The position numbers and the translations under genes are program-made. Positions 20,361-39,397 of a stretch of DNA of 64,000 nucleotides are shown piece by piece. Source of the DNA: Candidatus Pacearchaeota archaeon (GTDB lineage: Archaea > Nanobdellota > Nanobdellia > Pacearchaeales > GW2011-AR1); assembly GCA_018303845.1 (NCBI GenBank), contig JAGVXH010000005.1, positions 20,105-84,104 of the forward strand, written 5' to 3'. Positions within the stretch are counted from its first letter, which is position 1. Each line of letters begins with the position of its first letter. Under the pieces are notes generated by a model. The model did no database searches. It worked only from the letters and a program-made list of their open reading frames with translations, and was not told the DNA's origin.

Positions 20361-20948
20361 ATGCCCATTACAACAGAGGAAGCCAATAAAATCAAAGAAC
20401 ACCTTCTAACCCAACTAGACAACTTCCCAGAAGACAAACGAGAACAAATCGCAGAACAAATCAATTCAATGTCAGACGAACAAATCGAAGCTTTCGTTAA
20501 ACAAAACAAACTAACTCATCTCGGTGGACAATGCATCTTCTGTTCAATTATAGCAAACAAAACCAAGTCCTACAAAATAGCCGAAGATAAAGACAACATA
20601 GCAATCCTAGAACTTATGCCAATAAGTAAAGGGCACTCTCTCATCGTACCAAAAGAACATCTAGAAAAAACCTCAGAATCAACAAACTCCCTAGTGCAAG
20701 AAGTATCAAAAAAATTAAAGAAAAAATTCTCGCCACAAGAAATCAAAATCAACGAAATAAAAATAATGGGCCATGCACTCCTGGAAATAATTCCCATATA
20801 CGGGGATGAGACCGAAAAAAGACAAGCCTCAGAAGAAGAGCTAAAATCCCTCCAAGAAGAAATACTAAAACCCTCAGAAATCAAAATAGAAAAACCTCAG
20901 GAAATCAAAATAGAAGAAATCCCAATCCTCCCTCCAAGAATACCCTAA
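20361..20948 (+). CDS. HIT-like protein with degenerate catalytic motif
   Basis: The 195-residue protein has an N-terminal helical region (1-55), then a HIT-fold domain: CIFCSIIANKTKSYKIAEDK, AILELMPISKGHSLIVPKEH and, in place of the HxHxH triad, IMGHALLEIIPIY. Only the first histidine remains; the middle, nucleophilic one is Leu and the third Glu. A Pro/Lys/Glu-rich tail follows. It therefore cannot hydrolyse nucleotides by the usual route and may bind nucleotides or protein. It ends convergent with the prepilin peptidase (4-base overlap). Confidence 0.75.
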   Translation: MPITTEEANKIKEHLLTQLDNFPEDKREQIAEQINSMSDEQIEAFVKQNKLTHLGGQCIFCSIIANKTKSYKIAEDKDNIAILELMPISKGHSLIVPKEHLEKTSESTNSLVQEVSKKLKKKFSPQEIKINEIKIMGHALLEIIPIYGDETEKRQASEEELKSLQEEILKPSEIKIEKPQEIKIEEIPILPPRIP

Positions 20949-21769
20949 ATCCCAAACAGCCCCAAAAACCAACCCTTCAAAAAAACATATCCTAAAAACG
21001 CAATCAAAAATGCCGGAACAAACGGCAACCCTTCCTTAATCATAACCCTCTTCTCCTTCCTCAATAACTCAATATCATCTAGCGACAACCCATCCCAATT
21101 CGCCTTAACAACTCTTCGTCCAACCTTAACATCTTCAACCAACCAATCCCCCTCTCGAAGTTCAAAACCACTAACTTCCCTAATCATCGAAACATTTTCG
21201 AGCCCCTTAGCAAAAACATAAAGAAACGGAAAAATAAAAAGACAAACTCCAATCAAGAAAAAAATAAAATTTTTAACACCAAAAATCATCAAAACAGATG
21301 CCAACAAAACAACTCCAACAAGCCATCTCTTTTCGCTAACCAGCCTTCCCATTTCCGCATTAATTTTATCTCGATTCAAATACCATAAAACACCAGAATA
21401 ACAAAGCCCATAGACAGATCCCGCGACCATCAAAAACAAACAAAAAATTCCAACATTAATTACCGATTCATAAAAACTAGCACCCAAAAAAAACACCGTC
21501 ATCGCAAACAACAACTTCGCATCCCCCCCAGCAAAAACCCGACCATAATAAAAAATATTCATAATAACAAACATAATTACCAATAAAAACCCAACATGAA
21601 AAATAATATCCAACTCATCTCTCAAAATTGCACCATAAAAAACAAAGACCAAACTAGAAACAAGCAAAAACAAATTCAACCAATTATCAACCTCACGCCT
21701 TTTCAAATCCTGCATACTAGCAACAACAATCCCACAAAAAAACAACCAAAACAAAAACCCAAACTCCAT
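20945..21769 (-). CDS. Prepilin peptidase (A24, archaeal FlaK/PibD/TadV type)
   Basis: This membrane aspartic peptidase cleaves class III signal peptides of archaeal pilins and archaellins. The 274-residue protein has about seven membrane helices, the first catalytic Asp in ASMQDLKRREVDNWLN (about residue 20) and the second in AGGDAKLLFAM (about 82). A soluble segment (EVSGFELREGDWLVEDVKVGRRV) lies before the last helix, as in larger archaeal homologues. It ends the long - strand pilus locus whose products carry its target motif. Confidence 0.88.
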   Translation of the reverse strand: MEFGFLFWLFFCGIVVASMQDLKRREVDNWLNLFLLVSSLVFVFYGAILRDELDIIFHVGFLLVIMFVIMNIFYYGRVFAGGDAKLLFAMTVFFLGASFYESVINVGIFCLFLMVAGSVYGLCYSGVLWYLNRDKINAEMGRLVSEKRWLVGVVLLASVLMIFGVKNFIFFLIGVCLFIFPFLYVFAKGLENVSMIREVSGFELREGDWLVEDVKVGRRVVKANWDGLSLDDIELLRKEKRVMIKEGLPFVPAFLIAFLGYVFLKGWFLGLFGI

Positions 21770-21844: not shown

Positions 21845-22042
21845 TTAATACTTTCTCTTCTTAACCTTGCCAAAACCTTTTTTCTTTTCTGACAAAACCT
21901 TCCCCATCTTATCCACCTTCTCACCCTCAACCTCATCAACATTAGCACTCCGAAACTTTCCTCCTACCTTATACCCACGATTAATCCGCTTCCTCTTCAA
22001 ATCACCCTTCGTCGTCCGCTTATCACATCCACCAAAATCCAT
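21845..22042 (-). CDS. Small basic protein in the pilus locus
   Basis: A 65-residue, strongly basic protein (TTKGDLKRKRINRGYKVGG, and the tail KKGFGKVKKRKY). No family was recognised. Its ATG overlaps the stop of the preceding pilin-like gene (TAATG), so translation is probably coupled. It may interact with nucleic acid or with the cytoplasmic face of the pilus machine; neither is shown. Confidence 0.45.
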   Translation of the reverse strand: MDFGGCDKRTTKGDLKRKRINRGYKVGGKFRSANVDEVEGEKVDKMGKVLSEKKKGFGKVKKRKY

Positions 22043-22605
22043 TACTTCAAAACCTCCACAACATACTTCCCACTTTTTCGTGTAATCAAATATTCTCTAT
22101 CAAAAACAAAATCATATTCAACGGGAAAACCAATCTTCACATCTTCCGAAACTTTAAGCAAACCTCTTTTCCCAGTTTCCTGTCTTTTCAAAACCAAACC
22201 ATCACTAACTTCCTCGACAGAATACAAAACATCTCTAAAAAAACCATTCTCATCAAATCCAGTCCCAACCTCTACCTTAGAACCTCTCCAAAACAAATCC
22301 TTCAAAATAAAATCCTTCATCTCTTGACTTAAACCCGAAACAAACTCTTTCTCAAATTTCTCCTTGTCAATCCCACTCTTCTCAACCGAGTCCAACACCA
22401 ACTCTTTTTCTCTCATCTCAAAAATATCCAACTCATCTCTAATCTCCAAAACAGCAAGCGGAGAAACTAGAGCAATACTAAGTTTATTCTGATGATTAGA
22501 ATAAGACAAAAGAACCATCCCGCATAAAACCAAAGTCAACAAAACAATAGGAATCGCCATAAAAACCCCGCCCCTTTTATCTCGACAAAAATTAACTCTA
22601 CCCAT
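22042..22605 (-). CDS. Pilin-like protein with class III signal peptide (187 aa)
   Basis: The start is the ATG at 22605, which overlaps the stop of the upstream gene; the track start at 22695 lies in a different gene. The N-terminus MGRVNFCRDKRGGVFMAIP has a KRG|G-type cleavage site before a hydrophobic helix (VLLTLVLCGMVLLSY). The rest is soluble and charged, with a central LSQEMKDFILKDLFW and a beta-rich end. Probably a minor pilin or pilus-associated subunit. Confidence 0.6.
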   Translation of the reverse strand: MGRVNFCRDKRGGVFMAIPIVLLTLVLCGMVLLSYSNHQNKLSIALVSPLAVLEIRDELDIFEMREKELVLDSVEKSGIDKEKFEKEFVSGLSQEMKDFILKDLFWRGSKVEVGTGFDENGFFRDVLYSVEEVSDGLVLKRQETGKRGLLKVSEDVKIGFPVEYDFVFDREYLITRKSGKYVVEVLK

Positions 22606-22879
22606 TCTCAAAACCTCCAGCAACAAGAGCATCATCAACATCATAATCTCCAGCGACATAAAACCGCGCCTTAACCAACCTCTCATAATCCTCATTCATA
22701 TAAATAAAAAATTCTCCCTCTTCTTCACTCTCTCCAAAATAATTAGCCAAGACAGGCTCCTCTGCAAAAATCTTAAACGGCTCACTCAAAAGAATAAATC
22801 CTCCAAGAATAATCGCAACAAGAATAATCGCAAAAAACATAGAAATAAGTGTCCCAAGTTGTCCCTTCTTACTTTTCAT
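22598..22879 (-). CDS. Pilin-like protein with class III signal peptide (93 aa)
   Basis: The N-terminus MKSKKGQLGTLISMFF has KKG|QLG before a hydrophobic helix (FAIILVAIILGGFILL). The mature part is acidic (FGESEEEGEFFIYMNEDYERL). It overlaps both neighbours (11 bases upstream, 8 downstream), typical of a coupled operon. Probably a small pilin-type subunit. Confidence 0.6.
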   Translation of the reverse strand: MKSKKGQLGTLISMFFAIILVAIILGGFILLSEPFKIFAEEPVLANYFGESEEEGEFFIYMNEDYERLVKARFYVAGDYDVDDALVAGGFENG

Positions 22880-23408
22880 AATTAATCAAAACCTCCACCT
22901 TAACAAAACCATCCCTAGTCACTCCATTCTCGAAAACAAACGCCTTATACTCATCACTAAAATAGCCAGGATTATACTTCGCAATCTTTTCAACATTCTC
23001 ATTATTCCATCCGCTAACCGCATTCCCAGTAACAACCACCTTCTCGAACAAATCCCTAACCCAAAGTAACCCCTCATCTCCATCCTTTAGATAAACTTTC
23101 CTAGCATCACTATCAACCTCAACCCCAACATAAATCCTTTCACTCTCTTCAATCCCACAATGCCTCAAAATAAAACTTCTATCTTCTTCCTTAATATTAT
23201 CCAAATTCAAAACACCCTCAGGGAATAAACACTCCACAATCGCCCTACCAAGTAATAAAGACTCAGCATCTCGAACGCTAATATCATAAGCATAATAAAC
23301 AGAAGAGGCCCCAAAAATAACAACCGCAATGGCCGAAATCAAAACCAAAACCGGAACCATCTCAACAATATCGCCAACCCCGCTTCCTCGTTTATTCATC
23401 CAAAACAT
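22869..23408 (-). CDS. Pilin-like protein with class III signal peptide (179 aa)
   Basis: The N-terminus MFWMNKRGSGVGDIVEMVP has KRG|SGV followed by a hydrophobic helix (VLVLISAIAVVIFGAS). The mature domain is mixed alpha/beta with two cysteines (ECLFPEG and RHCGIEE) that might form a disulfide, and a TGNAV sequence. The start may be 23408, 24 bases after an ATTTAAAG box, or 23399, which gives MNKRG. The promoter lies beside a 17-bp tandem repeat. Confidence 0.6.
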   Translation of the reverse strand: MFWMNKRGSGVGDIVEMVPVLVLISAIAVVIFGASSVYYAYDISVRDAESLLLGRAIVECLFPEGVLNLDNIKEEDRSFILRHCGIEESERIYVGVEVDSDARKVYLKDGDEGLLWVRDLFEKVVVTGNAVSGWNNENVEKIAKYNPGYFSDEYKAFVFENGVTRDGFVKVEVLINYEK

Positions 23409-23543: not shown

Positions 23544-23903
23544 TCATTTAACTCTAACCACAAATTTATCTAAATCCTCTTCAACAAAAACTTCATTACT
23601 AGAAAAATAAGGATACCCCTTACTAGAAGGAAGCCCATCAACCTTAACATAAATTCTCCCATCTCTGACCTCGACCCCATCAACTAACCCATTCAAACTC
23701 TTTTTCACAATCTCAAAACTAAACCCACTCTCACTAGCATCAATCAAAAGCGCCAACTCTTTTTCCAAAACCTGCTGTTTAATTCCTCTCGCCTCAAGCC
23801 TTCCCTCTAGTGCAAGAAAAAAAACAGCAAATAACAATCCAACTAAAATAATCTGAATAACAGCCTTAGATAAAATATCCCCCTTCTTACCAAATCGTCT
23901 CAT
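23544..23903 (-). CDS. Pilin-like protein with class III signal peptide (119 aa)
   Basis: The start is the ATG at 23903, overlapping the previous stop as ATGA. The N-terminus MRRFGKKGDILSKAVIQII carries KKG|DIL before a hydrophobic helix (ILVGLLFAVFFLAL). The mature domain has heptad-like helix KQQVLEKELALLIDASES and a beta-rich end. Probably a minor pilin. Confidence 0.6.
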   Translation of the reverse strand: MRRFGKKGDILSKAVIQIILVGLLFAVFFLALEGRLEARGIKQQVLEKELALLIDASESGFSFEIVKKSLNGLVDGVEVRDGRIYVKVDGLPSSKGYPYFSSNEVFVEEDLDKFVVRVK

Positions 23904-24883
23904 CCGGGAATTCCCTCCCATTCATCACAAAAACCAACGCTAGCAGATTCTATCTCATCAACCCTCTTCTCATATTCAATCCAATTTTTTAATTGCAAAA
24001 ATTCCCAAAAACTCGCAGATGGACTAAAAATAAAATTATTCTGCACTTCCTTAAACGAATCATCTTTTTGTCCAGATTGAAAATAAAATAAATAGGGGAC
24101 ATATTCGCCAAACCCTTTCGACTCACCCACAACCAATTGAATACCCGCAACAACACCATAATTAATCATCAAATCTCCCTCGTCAATATTAAACCTCTCT
24201 GGCAGAGAAACATTAATACTACTCATCTTCGCCTCAAAAGTTACCCCATTAGCCCTATTCACCAAGTCAACACTAGCCCAATCCCACTTCTTACTTTCAA
24301 CACTAAAATCTTCTCCATTTAAATTAAAAGGAACAGCATTTCCAAAATTAAGAGCCGAAAAACTTTTTCCAGAATCCTGCAAATAAGAATAATAAGTAAA
24401 ACCTTCTTTCATTTTCAAATCCAAAGCATCCTTAATATTAATCTCAACCTTATTATCCCGAGCATATTTCTTCGCCTCGTCCGTAAAATGAATTCTAGCA
24501 CACGGAACACATACACTCGATTTAAAAAATTTAGCAGGAAACACATTCAAATCTCCATTCCCATAAAGGTTCCAACATTCTGCCATAGACTCTGCAATCT
24601 TCTCTTGAGCAACCTTAACATTTCTAACATCCGCCTCACTCACCTCAACAACCATCGTTTTACATTTCAAAGGGAAACTAGATTTAAATTCAAGCTCATC
24701 TGCCCCAAGTCCAGAGTCGGGAAGCGTCGCCCTCAACTGAACACTCTGCCAACAAACCTCCTTATCTCCCTCGTCACCAACCCAAAACTCCTGATAAATA
24801 AAAAAAATCGAAATAGCCAAAACCAACACTCCAAGTATCAAATACAAAAGAATCCCATACATATAGTCCCCCTTCTTATCCAT
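23900..24883 (-). CDS. Large pilin-like surface protein with class III signal peptide (327 aa)
   Basis: The N-terminus MDKKGDYMYGILLYLILG has KKG|DYM followed by a hydrophobic helix, consistent with prepilin-peptidase processing. The long extracellular part has cysteine pairs (CWQSVQ, LKCKTM, ECWNLYG, and CVPCARIHF) and a beta-rich region. I do not recognise the domain. The ATG at 24883, 25 bases after a TTTTATTAAG box, is preferred. It begins a coupled run of five pilin-like genes. Confidence 0.6.
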   Translation of the reverse strand: MDKKGDYMYGILLYLILGVLVLAISIFFIYQEFWVGDEGDKEVCWQSVQLRATLPDSGLGADELEFKSSFPLKCKTMVVEVSEADVRNVKVAQEKIAESMAECWNLYGNGDLNVFPAKFFKSSVCVPCARIHFTDEAKKYARDNKVEINIKDALDLKMKEGFTYYSYLQDSGKSFSALNFGNAVPFNLNGEDFSVESKKWDWASVDLVNRANGVTFEAKMSSINVSLPERFNIDEGDLMINYGVVAGIQLVVGESKGFGEYVPYLFYFQSGQKDDSFKEVQNNFIFSPSASFWEFLQLKNWIEYEKRVDEIESASVGFCDEWEGIPG

Positions 24884-25135
24884 AAACAAGAAACCCAAAC
24901 CAACTTAATAAAACTTACCCAGCCCAAACATCCATAAAAAACCCCAACCAAAAACCCAAAACCTCTCAACAAAAATCCGTGCTAATCCGTGAACTATTTT
25001 TTATTAACCAAACAACCTCAATCCCAAAAACGAAAATTCGCGTACATTCGCGCAAATTCACGGCTAAATAATTCTCCATCACTCCCCAAGTCCCCATTAT
25101 TTTACCAATCTACAACAAACAAAACCATCATCTCT

Positions 25136-25396: not shown

Positions 25397-25525
25397 TTAC
25401 CCAGCAGCCCTAGAAACAATATTCCGTATAGCAAAACCAACAGCAACAATAACCAGAATAACCAATATCCATTTAATAGTCTCACCCGAAACCAATTCCC
25501 CCCGCTTACTTAGTGGAAAAAACAT
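25397..25525 (-). CDS. 42-aa microprotein with class III signal-like N-terminus
   Basis: This gene is not in the ORF track. It begins MFFPLSKRGELVSGETIKW, overlapping the end of the 173-aa pilin-like gene by about 20 bases, and continues as one transmembrane helix (ILVILVIVAVGFAIRNIV) before a stop. The KRG|ELV motif resembles the prepilin peptidase sites of its neighbours. After processing it would be a very short membrane helix, perhaps a pilin-like accessory. The 81-aa track ORF in another frame is rejected. Confidence 0.5.
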   Translation of the reverse strand: MFFPLSKRGELVSGETIKWILVILVIVAVGFAIRNIVSRAAG

Positions 25526-26027
25526 AGCCTCCTCCATCTTTCCAAATCTCAACCCGACCACCCTCAACAATCTCCCATGTACCAGAACTCAAATCACTAG
25601 CATCAATACTATGCACACTGCCAACAATACTCCGAGCAGACATACTCAAATCCAAACACTCTCTACAATAATTTTGCTCATCCTCTCCATCCCAATAACA
25701 AACACAAATCACATTATCCCCAATCTTCTTATTCTTAAAATATTCCTCTCCTTCAACATCACCAAAACTAGCAACACTGCCAAAATAAACCAAATAAAAC
25801 TTCATATCCTTATCCCCCCTATCAAACATAATAACTTCGCCAACCCCGCCCTTATCCGCAATACCAACCCCTTCCTCTATAACCTTCAAATATCCCTCAC
25901 TAATTTTATCGGCTTCATCATACAAACCATAAAAACTAACCGCAAAAATAATCAAAACAGCAACAACAGCAACAGCAATAATAAGCTCAATAGCAGAATC
26001 ACTAACCACCTCTCCTCTTTTCTCCAT
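25506..26027 (-). CDS. Pilin-like protein with class III signal peptide (173 aa)
   Basis: The N-terminus MEKRGEVVSDSAIELIIAV has KRG|EVV before a hydrophobic helix (AVVAVLIIFAVSFYGLY). The mature domain holds a cysteine cluster (NVICVCYWDGEDEQNYCREC) that may bind metal or form disulfides. The ATG at 26027 overlaps the stop of the lysozyme-domain gene, so the two are coupled. Confidence 0.6.
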   Translation of the reverse strand: MEKRGEVVSDSAIELIIAVAVVAVLIIFAVSFYGLYDEADKISEGYLKVIEEGVGIADKGGVGEVIMFDRGDKDMKFYLVYFGSVASFGDVEGEEYFKNKKIGDNVICVCYWDGEDEQNYCRECLDLSMSARSIVGSVHSIDASDLSSGTWEIVEGGRVEIWKDGGGYVFSTK

Positions 26028-27850
26028 CAACATCGCCTATCCAAAAATTTAGAAATAACACTGGCCCTATAAACCTCATCAAAAAAATACTTACCAAGTC
26101 TATAAGTCCCCTCATCTCCACTCTCAATCCAACTAGAACCATTCCACGTAACAAGCAACACCGGATAATATTCCAAATCAACTCTATGAAAAGCATCATT
26201 AACCCAAAACTCAAAATCACTTACAGTCTTTCCTGCCCCAGACTGCTTCAACCCAAACTTAGATTCTCCCTTTGAAAAACTTAAAACTGCCTTCCCTTCA
26301 CTTTGCTCAACTCCAACAACAAACTCTTCACCCTTCAAAACAACTTTCTCCCCAGCAAAAGACTTCTTCAATGCCTCAATATCCGAACCAGAAACACTAG
26401 AAGAAACAAGAAGTCTCGTACGCAATCCAGCAAAAATATCTTTCAATCTCGCCAAATCAGCCTCACTATCCAACTCACCAGAGTCCCCATAATTCTCAGC
26501 CGAAACAAAATTTTCATTTTCCAAAACCTTGTAAAACGCAACCTCATACCCAGCATCCTCCTGACTCATCTTATTTATCCCAAATCTCCATTCCCTCCAA
26601 ACATTATCAACATCTCCTTTGTGCCTTCCATAAATCTCCGCAAGCATTTTTTCCACAACAATCTTATACATCATCTTATCCTTATCGCTATTCAAATCCC
26701 CACTTCCCCCATAATCATATCTAGAGACATCCTCCCCAGTCTTAGGATCCTTCTTATCCCTAGGCATATCCTCTCCCCCCCATTTCAAAAAAGTATTTCC
26801 CTGCTCAACAAACCTTTCAAGATATCGCTTCTCCCTGTCATCCCAATTCATTCCTTCCTTTTTCAAATACCCTTGAGCCAAACTTTTAGTCAACTGAAGC
26901 GGGCCATAAGCCGTAGAAGAAGAACCATCTATCTTTGTCCTAATCCAAGGATCATAGCCATCTTTCAACCGACCGCTATTATAATCAAAATATCCCCTAT
27001 GTTCCGCAGCCATAACAGCATCATAAAGAGTCTCCGTTTTCAGATACTCACTCTTCACCTTCTTATCTTCAACTTTCTCTCCAAAAAGCAAACTCTCTAA
27101 TCCCTTGCCCTCACCCTTCAAGTACTCAACCCCAACCTTATTCTCAGAAAGTCTCCAATTAACCTTATCATCATTAAAAATATCTTTAACCTCATCATAA
27201 AACAAAGTCAAAGCCTCATCGTCATTATCAATCTCCCTAACAAACTTTCCATTTTTCCAAAATTCCCAAATACCATTTTGCCAACGTAATTCAACATTCG
27301 CATCTCCACCACTTCCATCCCCAATTAAACTAAACTGCATAGTGGAGCCTTCATCCATTAAATCCCTAACATCAACACTTTGCAAAATACCAATCCCGAC
27401 ATGATAAGCCTCCCAATCAAACAACGCAGAATCTTCACTACCAACAATCAAATTATTATATTCTACCCATTCCCCATTTGTCAATTTCCTAAACTTTCCT
27501 TTCATCATCTCATAATCATCCAAACCACCTCCCTCAAATGTACAAGTCCTATCACGACACTGCTTAAACCCAATATCGTCGTCTTTAATACCCAACTTCT
27601 TCAACATCTCACTTCCCAAAACAAAATCTGAAATCCTATAATCGATACACTCCTCAAAAGGCCCTCCGTTATTACCTAGCGACATCAACATACCTAAAAC
27701 CTCATTTGCCTTTCCCCCAATCTCCTCTATTTCAGGAATTATCCCATTCCCAATAAGAAAAGAAAGAAAAAGCAAAACCACAACTAAAATAATAATTTTA
27801 ATAAGTCTGTTAAAGGCCTCATTCCCCTTTTTCCCATTCAGCAAATTCAT
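26027..27850 (-). CDS. Pilus-locus protein with class III signal peptide and lysozyme-like domain
   Basis: The 607-residue protein starts MNLLNGKKGNEAFNRLI (KKG|NEA) followed by a hydrophobic helix (residues 17-35). A long central region precedes a segment at about 275-430 with AAEHRGYFDY, DPWIRTKIDGSSSTAYGPLQ and LTKSLAQGYLKK. It resembles lysozyme/transglycosylase-type domains of phage tails and endolysins, where the Glu (here E283) is catalytic and the STAYGPxQLT motif lines the cleft. A lysozyme-like enzyme exported like a pilin is unusual for an archaeon. Its target, perhaps peptidoglycan or a host surface polymer, is unknown. It overlaps both neighbours. Confidence 0.65.
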   Translation of the reverse strand: MNLLNGKKGNEAFNRLIKIIILVVVLLFLSFLIGNGIIPEIEEIGGKANEVLGMLMSLGNNGGPFEECIDYRISDFVLGSEMLKKLGIKDDDIGFKQCRDRTCTFEGGGLDDYEMMKGKFRKLTNGEWVEYNNLIVGSEDSALFDWEAYHVGIGILQSVDVRDLMDEGSTMQFSLIGDGSGGDANVELRWQNGIWEFWKNGKFVREIDNDDEALTLFYDEVKDIFNDDKVNWRLSENKVGVEYLKGEGKGLESLLFGEKVEDKKVKSEYLKTETLYDAVMAAEHRGYFDYNSGRLKDGYDPWIRTKIDGSSSTAYGPLQLTKSLAQGYLKKEGMNWDDREKRYLERFVEQGNTFLKWGGEDMPRDKKDPKTGEDVSRYDYGGSGDLNSDKDKMMYKIVVEKMLAEIYGRHKGDVDNVWREWRFGINKMSQEDAGYEVAFYKVLENENFVSAENYGDSGELDSEADLARLKDIFAGLRTRLLVSSSVSGSDIEALKKSFAGEKVVLKGEEFVVGVEQSEGKAVLSFSKGESKFGLKQSGAGKTVSDFEFWVNDAFHRVDLEYYPVLLVTWNGSSWIESGDEGTYRLGKYFFDEVYRASVISKFLDRRC

Positions 27851-27987
27851 CGCCCAAACCTCAACAAATCCTTAATGCTACCTAAAAGCTCCACGCCTTT
27901 CCCACTAAGCAAAAACCCAACGGCCCAAACCATCACAACTAAAATAATCACAAAAATAATCATCTTAACAATCTCCTCTATTTCCAT
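27847..27987 (-). CDS. 46-aa membrane microprotein in the pilus locus
   Basis: This gene is not in the ORF track. It starts MEIEEIVKMIIFVIILVVM, has one membrane helix (IIFVIILVVMVWAVGFLL) and a short basic tail (SIKDLLRFGR). Its stop overlaps the ATG of the lysozyme-domain gene (ATGA), which argues that it is real and translationally coupled. Function unknown; it may be a structural partner of that protein. Confidence 0.5.
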   Translation of the reverse strand: MEIEEIVKMIIFVIILVVMVWAVGFLLSGKGVELLGSIKDLLRFGR

Positions 27988-28073: not shown

Positions 28074-28466
28074 TTATGAAGCAGCTTTAACTTCCGGCTC
28101 GCAAGTAAACTTTTCATCACATTTCTTAAATCCTAAACCAGAAGGAAGCAATACACCATCAATAAAGCCACCAACACTGAATTGATGGCAACTTCCACTA
28201 ATCTTCTTCAAATCACCTTTATCATCAAAAAACCTTAAATCTTTCTTCTCGCTACACCAAGAACTTTTCTCATTGTTATTACAATCATTTTCACAATCTG
28301 CAATCCTCAACTGAACATTAGATCCACTAGTCCTTCCAGCAATCTGATCCCACATATTAGTCCATCCAGTACTAAATCCCCAAATCAACAAAACCAAAAC
28401 AACAATCCCTAAAACAATAGCAACAATAGTTCCAAGCGTCATCTCCTGTCCTTTCTTATTCACCAT
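28074..28466 (-). CDS. Candidate major pilin with class III signal peptide
   Basis: The 130-residue protein starts MVNKKGQEMTLGTIVAIV, a KKG|QEM site before a hydrophobic helix that would form the filament core (IVLGIVVLVLLIWGF). The mature domain contains six cysteines (DCENDCNN, SWCSEK, GSCHQF, KKCDEKFTC), likely disulfides. It has its own strong TATA box and sits between the TadC-like gene and the lysozyme-like gene, so it may be the most expressed subunit. Confidence 0.65.
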   Translation of the reverse strand: MVNKKGQEMTLGTIVAIVLGIVVLVLLIWGFSTGWTNMWDQIAGRTSGSNVQLRIADCENDCNNNEKSSWCSEKKDLRFFDDKGDLKKISGSCHQFSVGGFIDGVLLPSGLGFKKCDEKFTCEPEVKAAS

Positions 28467-28532: not shown

Positions 28533-30710
28533 CTAAGCGAGCCCAGCCAAAGCAACCGCCCCAACAATCGTCAACCCAATAATAGAACCAGCCGCAACAA
28601 CCAAATACATAATCATAGAAACCTTCAAATTCTTACCGCCTTCCGAAGTCATCTGAATCGGATCCCGCCCACTCTTAATAGTCACCAAAGTAGAGGTTAA
28701 AATAAAAACGACCTCAATCAAATAAACACCGACAACAATCTGCAACCAATAAGTCGGAATCATCTTCGTTACATCAAAAATCGCCAAAATCCCACTAACT
28801 CCACCAGCCTCACCAATAGCTCCTCCGCTTAATCCTCCCGAACTAAACATTGAATTCAAAGCCGAAAGAATTGTAGTAATCATCCCAGACAACCCAACAA
28901 TAATCCCAGAGAGAAGCGGCGCCAAGAAAGTCATATTACTTTTCATATCCGAAATAATTTCAGCCAACAAATCATTCAACCTATCATTAATCTTCTTAAT
29001 ACTCTTAACATAATCACTAATCGACATCAATGACCGAGCAGCAACCTGCAACCCCTTCTTCACCGACTCAACCAAAATCTTCATGCTAGTAGCAACAAGT
29101 TGCGAAGGATAAAAAATAACAGCTCCCCTCTTCGGATCAAAAAGCGCCCTTTCCAAACTCATTCCAAGTTGCCCAATATTCTCATTCACAATTTTGAAGA
29201 ACCCTTCAGTTGCAGTGCCTTTAACGCTTCCAGAAACTTTAGCAAAAGCAATCTCCGCCGGACTCCCGTCCCCAATCCTATTTCCCAACTGGAACAAAGA
29301 CGATGTAAACTCAGCTTCAACTTCCTTGTATTTATTTCTCGTAACTAAAATTTCCTCAGTTCTCTCTTTTGCCCCCACAACAAAAATAACAGCAATAGCA
29401 GCAGGAATACAAAGACTCATCAAAAGAGCACCACTACCAAAAGGACCAGACAAATTTCCAGCCGAATCAGTCAAAATCCCAAACACGCCTCCTCCGCCCA
29501 AAAACCCAAGCCCAATAGAGGACCAAGCATAATCCCTTGTAGTCCCAAGCCAAATCGGAACAGGTGTATATCGCCAAAGAAAAGGAATTAGCCCAATAAC
29601 AAAAAGCGGAAAAGCCAAAACCGCACCCTTCCAATATCCAGCATTACTCTTATATTTAGAATAAAGCGGTGTCTTCTGCAAAACTCCAGACTCACCATAC
29701 CCACCAGGACGCTTCATCATAACATTTTCAGTTAAAGCAATCACCATAAACGGAATCAACACATTAAAAATCAAAAGCACATGATACCAAGCAATCGCAC
29801 CACCAAGCATAGTAGAAGCCAAAGGCAAAATCGCAAGAGCCAGCGTAGGCAAAACAATCCCAAGCATATAAACATTAGTAAGCGGAGCCTTAGCCTCATG
29901 TGTATACTTAAGCATCTTATCATAAACCCCATCCAAAATAACCTGCAAACTTTTTTCCAAAGTAGCAATTCGCCGCGCCTCATCAGGTTCATATAAACTC
30001 GATTCAATCAAATGAAACGCCTCGACAAATTCCAAACTATAATCTTTCCATCGAAGTAAATAATTATCAATAGACTCTTTTATAGTAGAAAACTTCCCTA
30101 CCTCGACATCCCAAAACACCTTACGAAAATCAGTACTCAAAGGTGCCCGCAAATGCTCCGAAGCAAAAGCCACAGCCTTCTCAAAGTTACTAGTATGCTT
30201 CATATAAATCACAATATACAAAATAGCAGGAACCATCTCAGCCGAAGCACTAAGTCTCCATCGCAAAGCAAGCCTTTCCGGAGTCTTCGAAGAATAAAAA
30301 AACAAAAAGATTGAAAAGACGAAAACCAAAAACAAAAACATCATAGAAAAAACACCAGTCAATAACCACACCGCAACAAAAAAAGCAATCCCACCAAAAA
30401 GCGAAAGAAACAAAAGCATAGTAGAAAAAACCAAAACCTCACCAGCTGTAACATTCAAATGCGCAATGTCAATAGCCTCATCAATCCGTGCCTTATCTTT
30501 TTCACCAACCTTAATAGAAAGAATATTCCCCATCGACTTACACCATCTCTCATACCGCGAAAATTCAGGCGCCATCTCTCCTTGAAACTTCTCGTAACTC
30601 TTAGAGAATCCCGCCCCCCGTCCCCCATCCCCCACAGCCTTATCATATCCCTTCATCTGCCTTTCTATCTTCGCCCCATACTTATTCAAAATATCTTCAG
30701 TACTAACCAC
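28533..30710 (-). CDS. Archaeal TadC/FlaJ-like pilus assembly membrane protein
   Basis: This 725-residue platform protein anchors the assembly ATPase. It has a long cytoplasmic N-terminus, two membrane-helix pairs flanking T2SF-like domains (ASAEMVPAILYIVIYMKHTSNFEKAV at about 160 and its second counterpart after 440), and a C-terminal cluster of helices ending GSIIGLTIVGAVALAGLA. It is larger than archaellar FlaJ, with two T2SF halves as in archaeal Tad-type systems. It starts with GTG at 30710, preceded by a strong GGAGGTG ribosome site. Confidence 0.8.
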   Translation of the reverse strand: MVSTEDILNKYGAKIERQMKGYDKAVGDGGRGAGFSKSYEKFQGEMAPEFSRYERWCKSMGNILSIKVGEKDKARIDEAIDIAHLNVTAGEVLVFSTMLLFLSLFGGIAFFVAVWLLTGVFSMMFLFLVFVFSIFLFFYSSKTPERLALRWRLSASAEMVPAILYIVIYMKHTSNFEKAVAFASEHLRAPLSTDFRKVFWDVEVGKFSTIKESIDNYLLRWKDYSLEFVEAFHLIESSLYEPDEARRIATLEKSLQVILDGVYDKMLKYTHEAKAPLTNVYMLGIVLPTLALAILPLASTMLGGAIAWYHVLLIFNVLIPFMVIALTENVMMKRPGGYGESGVLQKTPLYSKYKSNAGYWKGAVLAFPLFVIGLIPFLWRYTPVPIWLGTTRDYAWSSIGLGFLGGGGVFGILTDSAGNLSGPFGSGALLMSLCIPAAIAVIFVVGAKERTEEILVTRNKYKEVEAEFTSSLFQLGNRIGDGSPAEIAFAKVSGSVKGTATEGFFKIVNENIGQLGMSLERALFDPKRGAVIFYPSQLVATSMKILVESVKKGLQVAARSLMSISDYVKSIKKINDRLNDLLAEIISDMKSNMTFLAPLLSGIIVGLSGMITTILSALNSMFSSGGLSGGAIGEAGGVSGILAIFDVTKMIPTYWLQIVVGVYLIEVVFILTSTLVTIKSGRDPIQMTSEGGKNLKVSMIMYLVVAAGSIIGLTIVGAVALAGLA

Positions 30711-30794: not shown

Positions 30795-33700
30795 CTATGA
30801 CTTCAATTTCAAAAATTGTTTTTTAACATTCTTCCAATAAATTATTACAAAAATCAACAAGACAACAAGAACAACAATCAATCCCGCAATAAATCTATTC
30901 CCGCCTATCGTATCAAAAACTACATTCCCAGTAATAATTCCCTTATCCATTTCCTCCGTCTTCACAACAGGCATTTCTTTGGCAGGTACCACGTCGACAC
31001 CAGCCACAGCTCCAGTAGATGCAACCGGAACACTCTCACTAATAGACGTCAAAAGAATCTCAGCCCTACCAGCAGAAACACTCTTAAGATAAACATCCAA
31101 ATCATAAACTCCATTACCATCAACATCCACCTTCTTTGTCTGCCCGGGAACAAGGTCAAAAGTAACAGGGGTACTAGAAACCGTAATCGTCACCTTATCG
31201 CCAGATATACTATCGACTTTCAATGTATGACTCTGTCCAGCCAAATTAAAATCAACCTTGTAACCTCTGCCTAAAGAAATATCATACCCTGTAGAAAGAT
31301 CTGTTGCAGAAGGACTATATGTGGGATAGCTTCCACTACTACCTGAAGAACCAGAAGAAGCAGCATCTACAGTATAAGTAGTTTCAGCTAATACCGAATT
31401 TCCAGCATAATCAACAGCGGTACAATTCGTAGTAATGGTCCCAGCAACAGAAGTGGAGGGATTCGTAGTATAAGTGATCGAACTTACTCCCGAAGATGCA
31501 TCAGTTGCAGAACAGGTACAAGTAACGGTGCCACCGATTTGAACAGCAGAATCGCTACAGGCAAAAGTTATAACAGGATCAACACTATCTAAAAGAATAG
31601 TATAACGCCCACTGTTATTCGCATTTCCAAGAGTATCATTTGAAGTTGCATTATAATAATAAACTCCATCAGTCAGATTAGTAAAATTAATAGATGTGGG
31701 GGAACTTGTACCCAGGCTTGAATTAATTAAAACTACAGAGGAATTATATAATCTAATAAAAATAGTACTCAATGTCCCTGAATCTGCAGCCGTTACATTA
31801 ATAAAAATATTTGAGGTGGAAACATTAGAATTATTCGCACTAGGAGACACAAATACTATAGAAGAAGGACTCGTGGTATCTATATTAATAGTTCTCGTAG
31901 CCGTAGAATTAATATTCCCAGCAATGTCTACAATAGTCACATTGTAAGTATGAGTAGTATCACTTAACCCTGTCCAATTAATTGTATGAGTAGCATCAGT
32001 GTATGTCGTAGTATTAACAATTCCCGTCGTATTATATAATCTAAATGTTATATTAACTTCATTTACTTCTGTAACACTCGCATTGACATAAATATTAGAG
32101 ACGGACACATTAGCATTATCAACAGAAGTTCCAGTTCCATAATCAATTGCTGGAGTCGTAGAATCTATTTGAACAACATATGAATCATTTAGCCCAAATG
32201 TACCCAACGTATCATTTGCATAAACAAAAATTGTATTATTCCCATCTGCTAATCCCGTCAAAGCAATTAAGCTAGTATTACACCAACCAGAAACATATGC
32301 AATTGTTTGGTTAGTTCCATTTGCATTAACAACACAAGCACTTCTGCCAGTACCTTCATTGGTAAGAGAAATATTTAACGTTAAAGTTTGCAAATTTGTC
32401 TTTGTTGTTCCATTTACATAAAGTGGCAAAGAAATTCCAGGAGGAGTTGAAGTAACATTACTAACTGAAATAGTATTAGCGATTAATGTAACTTCTTTTT
32501 GCCCCAATGCTCTTCCAGTCAAAACTGCACCGTTCTGTAACGCAATAGTTGTTGTATCCGGCCCGCCTAAAATATTTCCTTTAAACTGAGAAGTTGTTCC
32601 AAGCGTTGTTGTTCCAGCAACTGCCCAAAAAATATTACTTGCTTGTGCGCCACCAGAAAGAACTACACTTGTAGCAGAACTAATATCCAAATTTCCAGAT
32701 ATACTAAAAATCCATACATCGTCAGAATCCCCATAAAGTGTAACATCTGTAGGTATTGTTACTCCGGTAGTCCAATCATAAAAACCCGCCACCAAAGTCA
32801 TTCCTCCAATATTTCCTGTACCTAATTCATTAGCAACAGGATTTGTTCTTCCATTGGCATCCGTCCAAGCAGCTTCCATTGCACTTACAGCAGCAGTCAA
32901 ATCAGCAGGAGTTGTACAATTTAAAGTACTATAGTCAGCCGCATAAACATTCCCTGACACTAAAGACGAAGTTGAAAAACATTCTGAAGAATCTAAAGAT
33001 AATCCAAATCCTTGAATAAAAGATGCAGCAGCTGGGCTCACTCCAATATCTCCAATAATAGCAGTAGTTCCAGTCGTAGTTATTTGAGTCTTTGAAAGAA
33101 TTGTAAAATTCGCCGCTGTTCCCAAATCAACTGTTGCTTGTGTATATAACGAACCATTTATTTGAACAACATAAGAGTCATTGAGGCCAAAATTATTAAG
33201 CGTATCATTTGCATAAACATTAATTGTGTGGTTCCCATTAGCTAGGTTTGTTAAAGCAATCGAAGTAGTATTACACCAACCAGAAACATATGAAATTGTT
33301 TGATTTGTTCCATTTACATTAATAATGCAAACACTTATGTTCGAACTAGCATCTACAGCTGAAATATTAAGTGCCAAAGTTTGAAAACTTGTTTTTGTTG
33401 TTGCATTTACATATCCTGGCAATGCGATAACTGGTCCTGTCGTATCATTTACCGTTACTCCTATAGTTGAAACAACAGTCCATCCAGTAGAATTCGTTGT
33501 TGTAATAGTAAAATTATAATTTCCTGGACTTGAAGCAGTAGCATTAAACCAAAAATATGCCAATGTTCCATTTTCTACCAAGCTAACAGTATCATTATTC
33601 CAAATTAAAGAAACAGTAGTATTAGAAAATAAAGAGCTAGTAACATTTGTTCCGTTCGAATCTGCCGCAAAAGAAAATACACTAGGAAATGTAATATTAA

Positions 33701-33908
33701 CTCCGGTTATATTATCAAGTGTATCTATATTACTAACCGTTATATTATAAACCGACTCAACAGATTCATTAACAGAAAATGCACTAAGGCCACTAGTTGG
33801 CGCAACAGTCAAAGCTGCAAAAGCAAAAGTAATAGATAAAAAAATTCCCAAAAATAAAAAAATTCCCAAAAATAAATTATAATTATTTTTAATTAATCTT
33901 TTTTTCAT
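30795..33908 (-). CDS. Large anchored adhesin with ice-binding-type DUF3494 domain and Ig-like repeats
   Basis: The 1037-residue protein has a signal peptide (MKKRLIKNNYNLFLGIFLFL), Ig-like modules, a DUF3494 domain at about 257-482 (VDLGTAANFTILSKTQI, GDIGVSP, and the end TGRALGQKEVTLIANTIS), further Ig-like modules, a Ser-rich linker and a C-terminal membrane anchor (GLIVVLVVLLIFVIIYW) with a basic tail. Two near-identical Ig modules (about 166-251 and 494-580) flank the DUF3494 domain, as if it was inserted. DUF3494 proteins bind ice or act in adhesion. The coding DNA is less strand-biased than its neighbours. Confidence 0.85.
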   Translation of the reverse strand: MKKRLIKNNYNLFLGIFLFLGIFLSITFAFAALTVAPTSGLSAFSVNESVESVYNITVSNIDTLDNITGVNITFPSVFSFAADSNGTNVTSSLFSNTTVSLIWNNDTVSLVENGTLAYFWFNATASSPGNYNFTITTTNSTGWTVVSTIGVTVNDTTGPVIALPGYVNATTKTSFQTLALNISAVDASSNISVCIINVNGTNQTISYVSGWCNTTSIALTNLANGNHTINVYANDTLNNFGLNDSYVVQINGSLYTQATVDLGTAANFTILSKTQITTTGTTAIIGDIGVSPAAASFIQGFGLSLDSSECFSTSSLVSGNVYAADYSTLNCTTPADLTAAVSAMEAAWTDANGRTNPVANELGTGNIGGMTLVAGFYDWTTGVTIPTDVTLYGDSDDVWIFSISGNLDISSATSVVLSGGAQASNIFWAVAGTTTLGTTSQFKGNILGGPDTTTIALQNGAVLTGRALGQKEVTLIANTISVSNVTSTPPGISLPLYVNGTTKTNLQTLTLNISLTNEGTGRSACVVNANGTNQTIAYVSGWCNTSLIALTGLADGNNTIFVYANDTLGTFGLNDSYVVQIDSTTPAIDYGTGTSVDNANVSVSNIYVNASVTEVNEVNITFRLYNTTGIVNTTTYTDATHTINWTGLSDTTHTYNVTIVDIAGNINSTATRTINIDTTSPSSIVFVSPSANNSNVSTSNIFINVTAADSGTLSTIFIRLYNSSVVLINSSLGTSSPTSINFTNLTDGVYYYNATSNDTLGNANNSGRYTILLDSVDPVITFACSDSAVQIGGTVTCTCSATDASSGVSSITYTTNPSTSVAGTITTNCTAVDYAGNSVLAETTYTVDAASSGSSGSSGSYPTYSPSATDLSTGYDISLGRGYKVDFNLAGQSHTLKVDSISGDKVTITVSSTPVTFDLVPGQTKKVDVDGNGVYDLDVYLKSVSAGRAEILLTSISESVPVASTGAVAGVDVVPAKEMPVVKTEEMDKGIITGNVVFDTIGGNRFIAGLIVVLVVLLIFVIIYWKNVKKQFLKLKS

Positions 33909-37105: not shown

Positions 37106-39397
37106 TCAAACCCCTAATTTCTTCGCTTCAACTTCAAGCCACCTCTTCCACTTCGCAAAAACGATATCTCCTTTCGGCACTCCAACATCCCCAGTCACCT
37201 CATCGCTAATCTGATGAAACGCATTGTTAGACATAACCGTAAAATCCCCTTCTAAAATCTCAGGCAGATTCTCTCTAATAGAAAAATCTACACTCTCTTG
37301 CTTAATCTTAGCACGAAGCAAAACATTATCCCAAACCGCATCCCAGTCCCCAGCCCAACCCTTAACATTACTTGCAATCTCTTTCATAATCTCCGAATCC
37401 CCATTCATCAAATCATCAGTCGCCTCCAACTTATCTCGCTTAACATCGTACTTCATCAAATCAACAAATCCCCCTTCGGCCAAAGGGTCCTTGTCCCAAT
37501 GCTTCCGAACCTCACTAATAGACAAAACCCGTCGCCAAGAATGAAGCCCATCCGCAGTCTTAATCGGATTAGCGACAACAATAATATCCGTCGCCTTAAA
37601 ACTCGTAACCGGAACATCCAAGTCATTACAAACTCTATCAAATACAGAATATGGACTTCCACCATGAATCGTACCAGCAACAACATTTGCAAGAGCCCCA
37701 ACCCTCATCGCCTCATACAAAGCCTTCGCCTCACTAGAACGAATCTCTCCAACAATTAAAGACGAATCGCCCAAACGAAGACTCGCCCGAATCCCTTCCT
37801 CTGCAGAAACCTCCGACGATTCACCCCCCAAAGCCGACCGAACCTTCATTGACAAAATATCATAATCAAGCTTCCTCATCGCAGACACGGGCAACTCCAG
37901 AGTATCTTCAATAGTAATAATTCTCTTATTGGGCATAATCTCCAAAAGCAAAGCCCCTAAAAGCGAAGTCTTTCCCGACGACCTAGTCCCAGCAACAAGC
38001 ATCGTCCGTGCCCCATCAATCATAAAACTCAAAAGCCCCGCACTCAAACTATCCATCATCCCATTCTTAATAAAAAGCGGCAAAGTCCAAGGCTTACTTC
38101 TATGTCTTCTCAAAGTATAAGCAAGCCCACCAGCGGACAAAGGCTCCTGAATAATCGCAACTCTCGCGCTCACATCCCCAAGCTCCAAATTCGTATCTAA
38201 TATAGGGTTAGCCTCATCAAGTGCCCGCCCACTAATCATCCTAAACTTCGCAGCCCAAGAATCCGCATCCTCCATCGACGGAACCAAATTACTAACACAC
38301 TCACCAAATTCATTATGCCTAACAAAAATCTTAGACAAACTAACCGGAGCATTAACCATAATATCCTGCAAATCCTCATCTTGCAACAACACTTCTAAAA
38401 CTCCAAACCCAATCGTATGCCGAACCAAAATATTCGCAAGCTTCTTCAAATCCCCATAACTCAAAACAACATTCTTGCTTCCAGCCAAATCACTAATCAA
38501 ATCCCGAGCAACATTATAAAAAACTTGCCGCGTTCTCTCAGGATCGCTAAATTCTTCAGCAGTCGGTCGATGCTCAATTAAAACATTCCGCGCCAAATTT
38601 AAAAGCATATGATGGTCCTCATCTAACAAATATTCAGGCGGAGACAAATGATAAACCAACTTTGCCTTATTCGGAACTTTAAAAATACTAACCAAGCTCT
38701 CATCGCTCCCACTCGCAATGCTATACTGCTTCACAATCTCGGCATCCGTCGGAATCTTCGCAACCATCCGCGTGAAAGTAAAATTCGGCATAATATCCGC
38801 ACGAAAAACCTCTCCATATATCGCCCTATCTCCAACAGAATACGAATCAAAAAAATCCTTCAACCGTCGAACAAGCTCCAAATCCTCAAACCATCCTTCC
38901 AACTTCTCCAGCAACCGAACATAATCACTCTCCCTACTCCTCACACTTTGCCCCTTACCCCTCTTCACCTGTTGTGCCTTCAACCGAAACAATTTCCCAC
39001 GCAACTCACGATAAGCCAAAATCGGATCCACAGATAATAACTCATTAACAATCCTATTCAAAAAAACATAGGCCTCTTCATAATCCTCGCCAAGTCCGCT
39101 AAGTCTCTCGGAAGAAACAATCCGCTCCTGCTTCATTAAAAAAGTAACTAATGCAGCAACCCCCTGCAACATTCTAACCTGCGAAAAATCATAAGAATAA
39201 TTTCTCTGCTGCACAAAAACAATCCGCGCAATATTAGACTCCTCGCGAAGCGCATCAATTGTCCGTCCCATCACTTCCGAAAAATCAACAAGCGACGGAA
39301 CAATTCGGTCACCCAAATAATTCACATACATCACATTCTCTCCACTGTCCCGAACAACCTCATAAGAATACAAAGCCGCGTCCCCCTTAAACATCAT
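37106..39397 (-). CDS. Type II/IV secretion ATPase of archaeal pilus type (TadA/FlaI-like)
   Basis: This hexameric ATPase powers pilus assembly. The 763-residue protein has a large N-terminal domain, then Walker A AGTRSSGKTSLLGALLLE (about 460), the Asp box TIEDTLELPVSAMRKLDYD, Walker B SLIVGEIRSSEAKALYEAMRVG and the His box TIHGGSPYSVFDRV. It is longer than FlaI because of N- and C-terminal extensions. It lies 6.4 kb from the TadC-like platform, separated by the adhesin island, but belongs with it by function. Confidence 0.88.
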   Translation of the reverse strand: MMFKGDAALYSYEVVRDSGENVMYVNYLGDRIVPSLVDFSEVMGRTIDALREESNIARIVFVQQRNYSYDFSQVRMLQGVAALVTFLMKQERIVSSERLSGLGEDYEEAYVFLNRIVNELLSVDPILAYRELRGKLFRLKAQQVKRGKGQSVRSRESDYVRLLEKLEGWFEDLELVRRLKDFFDSYSVGDRAIYGEVFRADIMPNFTFTRMVAKIPTDAEIVKQYSIASGSDESLVSIFKVPNKAKLVYHLSPPEYLLDEDHHMLLNLARNVLIEHRPTAEEFSDPERTRQVFYNVARDLISDLAGSKNVVLSYGDLKKLANILVRHTIGFGVLEVLLQDEDLQDIMVNAPVSLSKIFVRHNEFGECVSNLVPSMEDADSWAAKFRMISGRALDEANPILDTNLELGDVSARVAIIQEPLSAGGLAYTLRRHRSKPWTLPLFIKNGMMDSLSAGLLSFMIDGARTMLVAGTRSSGKTSLLGALLLEIMPNKRIITIEDTLELPVSAMRKLDYDILSMKVRSALGGESSEVSAEEGIRASLRLGDSSLIVGEIRSSEAKALYEAMRVGALANVVAGTIHGGSPYSVFDRVCNDLDVPVTSFKATDIIVVANPIKTADGLHSWRRVLSISEVRKHWDKDPLAEGGFVDLMKYDVKRDKLEATDDLMNGDSEIMKEIASNVKGWAGDWDAVWDNVLLRAKIKQESVDFSIRENLPEILEGDFTVMSNNAFHQISDEVTGDVGVPKGDIVFAKWKRWLEVEAKKLGV

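Follow-up and report, generated by a model that had tools for sequence, protein, structure and literature searches.

A lysozyme-like cassette on a pilin-type protein, and unrelated wall-cutting enzymes encoded by its pilus cluster in related archaea, suggest filaments armed to breach bacterial walls

Introduction

Archaea are known to secrete peptidoglycan hydrolases that kill bacteria; the distribution of these enzymes is patchy, and they are prominent in the Nanoarchaeota (PMC12352652). The enzymes collected in that survey were required to contain a wall-binding domain, a Sec or Tat signal was found in 32%, and pili are not mentioned. Murein transglycosylases of the Woesearchaeota have been proposed to serve a ‘vampiristic’ attack on bacteria, again with no link to pili (PMC9723730). 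In viruses, the ejection (internal virion) proteins of podoviruses include members with transglycosylase domains, which are among the subjects of a review (PMC8954989). In the literature that we searched, at the level of titles and abstracts and with few subscription journals, no link between an archaeal pilin and a peptidoglycan hydrolase was found.

In this study, we analysed a 64,000-nucleotide stretch of DNA from a Candidatus Pacearchaeota archaeon (assembly GCA_018303845.1, contig JAGVXH010000005.1, positions 20,105 to 84,104), hereafter the window, in which a 607-aa pilin-type protein contains a lysozyme-like domain. With a probability of about 0.62, we read this protein as a minor-pilin-type subunit of a type IV pilus machine that exposes a peptidoglycan-cleaving cassette for the local breach of bacterial walls.

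Results

The pilus gene cluster

Judged by its gene content, the cluster that contains the 607-aa gene is a type IV pilus locus. All of the genes described here lie on the (-) strand and are given in window coordinates. A prepilin peptidase (20945..21769; PF01478, E 7.5e-9) and a 763-aa T2SSE pilus-type ATPase (37106..39397; PF00437) were identified by Pfam, and the same cluster encodes a 725-aa TadC-like pilus membrane platform protein (28533..30710), which is found in 157 of the 164 family genomes. As the latter has no Pfam match, it is named from its sequence character and its context. The gene immediately upstream of the TadC-like one encodes a 1037-aa surface protein (30795-33908) in which an Ice_binding-like domain (PF11999, E 2e-62) is combined with a bacterial Ig-like domain.

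The cluster also encodes about nine small transmembrane (TM) proteins, of which nearly all have a K/R-G leader, and this class III-like leader motif recurs in nearly all proteins of the operon. Its small proteins include pilin-like ones of 130 aa (28074..28466; KKG followed by a TM segment), 175 aa (25506..26033), 125 aa (23544..23921), 179 aa (22869..23408) and 93 aa (22598..22879), a 57-aa TM protein with an SKRG motif (25397..25570), and a 217-aa ORF (22042..22695) that reads as pilin-like, with KRG and a TM segment, from an internal start. The most widely conserved companion is a 332-aa TM protein (23900..24898), with about 70 relatives in the surveyed loci. A 46-aa membrane microprotein (27847..27987) has no K/R-G leader and is kept throughout the genus immediately before the gene in question. 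The first-pass annotation had described the 607-aa gene as coupled to this microprotein and to another pilin-like protein, and the comparison agrees with it: the microprotein gene overlaps the start of the 607-aa gene by 4 bases, and both it and the 130-aa gene are syntenic in relatives.

The 607-aa protein

The gene at 26027-27850 (-) is a real, uninterrupted ORF of 607 codons with an ATG start. Its N-terminal part (residues 1-261; 27068..27850) begins with MNLLNGKKG, continues into a hydrophobic TM helix (residues 7-34 in the AlphaFold model) and contains a mixed alpha/beta domain. A class III signal peptide had been proposed here, and the K/R-G motif before a hydrophobic helix is indeed present. 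However, PF04021 (Class_IIIsignal) does not match this leader, its sole match in the genome being elsewhere and below the cut-off, so the class III assignment is made at the level of the motif. The lysozyme-like domain follows at residues ~266-447 (26510..27055), and a C-terminal domain occupies residues ~448-607 (26030..26509).

Searches of the protein against Pfam, NCBIfam and PHROGs gave no meaningful match, and weak SusD and KOW matches were judged to be due to chance; Pfam returned no known cell-wall-binding domain. The full-length protein was modelled poorly by AF2 (pLDDT 67), and a PDB search with that model gave nothing usable.

A phage-type transglycosylase-like family

The AAEHRG motif, which contains Glu283 (codon 27002..27004), and SSSTAYGPLQLT, both cited in the first-pass annotation as signs of a lysozyme-type domain, are found in the 607-aa protein. 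That annotation had made its reading depend on conservation of the Glu, and an alignment of 52 sequences shows no variation at Glu283, nor at R304, T305, S312, A314, G316 and Q319 (window numbering). The domain matches proteins of Vibrio phages of the Zobellviridae in tblastn (E 2e-7, coverage 79-81%; VpV262 at E 7e-3), where the relatives are small proteins beside very large ORFs in a late-gene block, and the Glu and STAYGxxQxT motif of this family are conserved in the window domain. With a profile that included the phage sequences, about 120 viral contigs were found to encode relatives. An earlier viral scan with a two-sequence profile had given no matches because the peptides chosen were lineage-specific.

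On several of the viral contigs, the domain forms the end of an ORF of >2000 aa. At one of the nearest viral loci (L036), it ends a 710-aa protein that directly follows a 1410-aa virion-type protein, a layout that to us resembles that of podovirus internal virion proteins. These alignments establish the cassette, at the level of sequence, as a member of a transglycosylase-like family found in virion-type proteins of podovirus-like phages. Pfam, NCBIfam and PHROGs contain no family for the domain, and its PF01464 (SLT) score does not exceed the Pfam cut-off. In a profile-profile comparison (hhalign) with archaeal SLT domains, the Glu and AYGPxQxT pair with the ES and GLMQ motifs (P 0.002, at a probability of only 13%), so that Glu283 falls on the SLT Glu.

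Modelling of the domain by AlphaFold from the 52-sequence alignment gave a pLDDT of 92, and the invariant Glu (Glu22 in domain numbering) is the last residue of the first domain helix (11-22). In a Foldseek search of a viral structure library, the best match was VpV262 (E 8e-7), followed by many phage SLT and LT_GEWL proteins (E 0.1-4), and those neighbours that have names are mostly transglycosylases. Against the PDB, Foldseek found nothing at E<=0.001; lysozymes and lytic transglycosylases, including lambda lysozyme, MltD, Slt and MltE, are among the top matches, but at the sub-significant E values of 2.7-8.5 and a TM score of about 0.33. The placement in the lysozyme superfamily therefore rests on the motif, the profile comparison and the similarity to viral models. 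Taken together, the domain is likely to be a divergent member of the lysozyme/transglycosylase superfamily, although the fold does not prove it, and the best reading of the cassette is that of a lytic-transglycosylase type with a single predicted catalytic residue, Glu283. The original proposal of a lysozyme-like, phage-type domain on a pilin-type N-terminus is supported by the phage homology and the conserved Glu, but not by a significant match to a solved lysozyme fold.

A cassette in a conserved slot

In three genus relatives (G006, G012 and G014), the corresponding slot, behind the TadC-like gene, holds homologues that lack the domain. They align to residues 10-221 (up to 280) and again from about residue 457 onward, except that the alignment of G012 covers the N-terminal part only. 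The only genus relative that shares the domain is the MAG archaeon SMBSF31 (JAIORZ010000011; G008), in the same synteny. Between this protein and that of the window, the domain is 48.6% identical, compared with 33% and 32% for the two flanks, and it therefore appears to be the part under the strongest constraint. These alignments define the domain as a cassette inserted in a conserved slot protein. A chimeric assembly was considered and rejected, as the gene recurs with the same synteny in an independent MAG.

Of 371 genomes from the phylum and 181 from the family, only the window genome and SMBSF31 were positive for the phage-type domain; a pattern-based, non-exhaustive scan of GTDB species contigs returned only SMBSF31 and one bacterial MAG. 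As the cassette was found in only two members of the genus and most pilus operons of the family have no recognisable hydrolase, the pilus does not require it.

The slot protein of another relative (G015, locus L111) has a Cys-rich insert (CNAIC...CCCHG) where the enzyme would be, which suggests that contact modules of different kinds may be displayed from this slot. Slot proteins without an enzyme at this position would fit a general receptor-binding role, and on this account the domain itself could have lost its activity and now serve as an adhesin that binds the wall or glycans. We consider this improbable, since the predicted catalytic Glu and the motif around it are invariant, and the SLT domains that are borne on pilins in other genera (see below) retain their ES and GLMQ-type motifs.

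The cell’s own envelope as a possible target

Peptidoglycan hydrolases are common components of bacterial envelope-spanning machines. By analogy, the enzyme could open the cell’s own wall for pilus assembly, in the manner of the VirB1-type transglycosylases of bacterial secretion systems, and the first-pass annotation had likewise raised filament assembly through the cell envelope as a function. However, Mur ligase (Mur_ligase_M) was found in none of 14 genomes of the genus (69-87% complete), with a control in which the same search was positive in 12 of 14 known genomes, two archaea among them. The assembly role thus finds no support, and action on the cell’s own wall is unlikely. As recognisable hydrolases are also missing from most pilus loci of the family, we regard a VirB1-like function as very improbable indeed, the least credible of the readings considered here.

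Hydrolases on pilins in other genera

The survey of the region downstream of the TadC-like gene took in about 110 family loci, not all of them complete. Pilin-type proteins with SLT domains occur in the same operon in six genomes (G017, G461, G473, G484, G485 and G311), and others with Amidase_2 occur in three (G473, G040 and G381), with SLT and amidase on neighbouring pilins in G473. In G026, a phage tail lysozyme domain (PF18013) lies on a pilin-type protein, with a 203-aa copy adjoining. The hydrolases are borne on about four pilin classes, some of which were assigned by eye: the class of the 217-aa ORF carries SLT in G484 and G485, that of the 179-aa protein carries SLT in G311 and Amidase_2 in G040 and G473, and that of the 125-aa protein carries SLT in G461 and G473 (all three by eye).

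In whole-genome searches of the 164 family genomes, 11 of the 117 SLT, Amidase_2 and PF18013 matches fall within 8.5 kb downstream of the TadC-like gene on the same strand, against about 0.66 expected. The corresponding Poisson probability is about 1e-10, or 2e-7 with strand ignored, values that use a rough mean genome size and treat the hits as independent, while G484 and G485 belong to one genus and the two hits in G026 lie next to each other. The first-pass annotation had suggested the breaching of the wall of a bacterial or archaeal host, and the bacterial case draws indirect support from the finding that, in other genera, pilins of this operon have repeatedly been fused to unrelated peptidoglycan hydrolases.

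Several further proteins in these genomes were noted. The G026 protein with PF18013 (684 aa; L216:6600-8651 (-)) has a C-terminal region that appears NlpC/CHAP-like by eye with no Pfam match, and a pilin-type protein of G025 (L149:5913-7205 (+)) likewise has a C39-type cysteine peptidase-like C-terminal region, recognized by eye and with no Pfam match. About 7-14 kb to the left of the window start, the same genome (contig G000:C3) contains a 2345-aa ORF (L219:6171-13205 (-)) that begins with a signal-like segment and ends in an SLT domain (E 8e-10). Many family genomes encode similar giant SLT ORFs (1300-3200 aa), and some of these domains are of the pilin-SLT subtype.

The main competitor to the pilus reading is that the 607-aa protein is a membrane-anchored ectoenzyme, which uses its pilin-type leader for export and anchoring only and digests peptidoglycan debris or kills neighbouring bacteria outside the pilus. 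The 2345-aa SLT ORF, which sits outside the pilus operon, and its giant counterparts in relatives are in line with such a role, as are the bacteria-killing secreted hydrolases of archaea (PMC12352652) and an ectodomain that is large for a filament subunit. However, several pilin classes of the operon bear hydrolases above chance expectation, and the cassette occupies a conserved slot of the pilus operon. The ectoenzyme is therefore an unlikely explanation in our view, albeit the one to be taken most seriously beside a pilus subunit.

In G004, a GH39/GH5-like glycosidase domain (E 5e-14) is borne on an extra pilin-type protein beside the usual slot protein (L115:2719-4038 (+)), so other glycans may also be targets. 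It lends something to the idea that the cassette really acts on the pseudomurein wall of an archaeon or on some other coat of glycans. SLT, Amidase_2 and phage-family enzymes, however, come from bacteria and their phages, and their substrate is peptidoglycan, for which reason we hold a target other than bacterial peptidoglycan to be quite improbable.

Discussion

We infer that the 607-aa protein is exported, is incorporated into a filament and cleaves peptidoglycan. In the mechanism that we propose for a pilus subunit, the prepilin peptidase would process the K-K-G leader, and the ATPase and the TadC-like protein would place the subunit in the pilus or at its tip. Contact with a bacterium would then bring the enzyme to the bacterial wall, where it may nick the peptidoglycan locally in the fashion of a phage ejection enzyme, after which the pilus or the cell could anchor, penetrate or take up material.

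In related archaea, this pilus cluster holds wall-cutting enzymes of unrelated families, which suggests filaments armed to breach bacterial walls. A more general proposal is a family-wide armed type IV pilus in small (DPANN-type) archaea, in which interchangeable peptidoglycan hydrolases (the phage-virion transglycosylase, SLT, amidase and phage tail lysozyme), gained from phages and bacteria, are mounted on several minor-pilin classes, and in which the pilus bores into bacteria that are hosts or prey. We consider the chances of this broader proposal to be evenly balanced.

For DPANN-type archaea, a pilus that repeatedly gains peptidoglycan hydrolases would indicate that their partners or prey are bacteria. 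Such an armed pilus would be a concrete molecular tool for interaction across domains, and would represent the recruitment of a phage-type entry enzyme by a cellular filament system of archaea. As far as our searches show, its component parts are of known kinds, and a pilus-mounted exchangeable hydrolase is not described in the literature searched.

Among the known systems, the closest in sequence are the Zobellviridae proteins (NVP1034X_27 of Vibrio phage 1.034.X and ORFW of VpV262), annotated in these phages only as hypothetical. They share with the window domain the Glu, IRT, STAYGxxQxT, DYGG and W-x-x-G landmarks. In contrast to the phage version, which is either a small protein encoded beside very large ORFs of the late-gene block or the last part of a giant ORF, the archaeal domain is inserted in a pilin-type protein. 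The SLT/GH23 lytic transglycosylases (PF01464) also have a Glu followed by a G-x-x-Q-type motif, and their chemistry is probably similar, but the window domain has no PF01464 match. The Woesearchaeota with murein transglycosylases (PMC9723730) are DPANN archaea, as the present organism appears to be from its gene content and genome size. The modular hydrolases of the archaeal survey (PMC12352652) are likewise archaeal and expected to act on bacterial walls; they have a wall-binding domain, whereas the window protein has none by Pfam. In podovirus ejection, an apparatus that penetrates the cell carries the enzyme and opens a local hole in the wall. There the enzyme is delivered by a virus particle, whereas here its carrier would be a cellular pilus.
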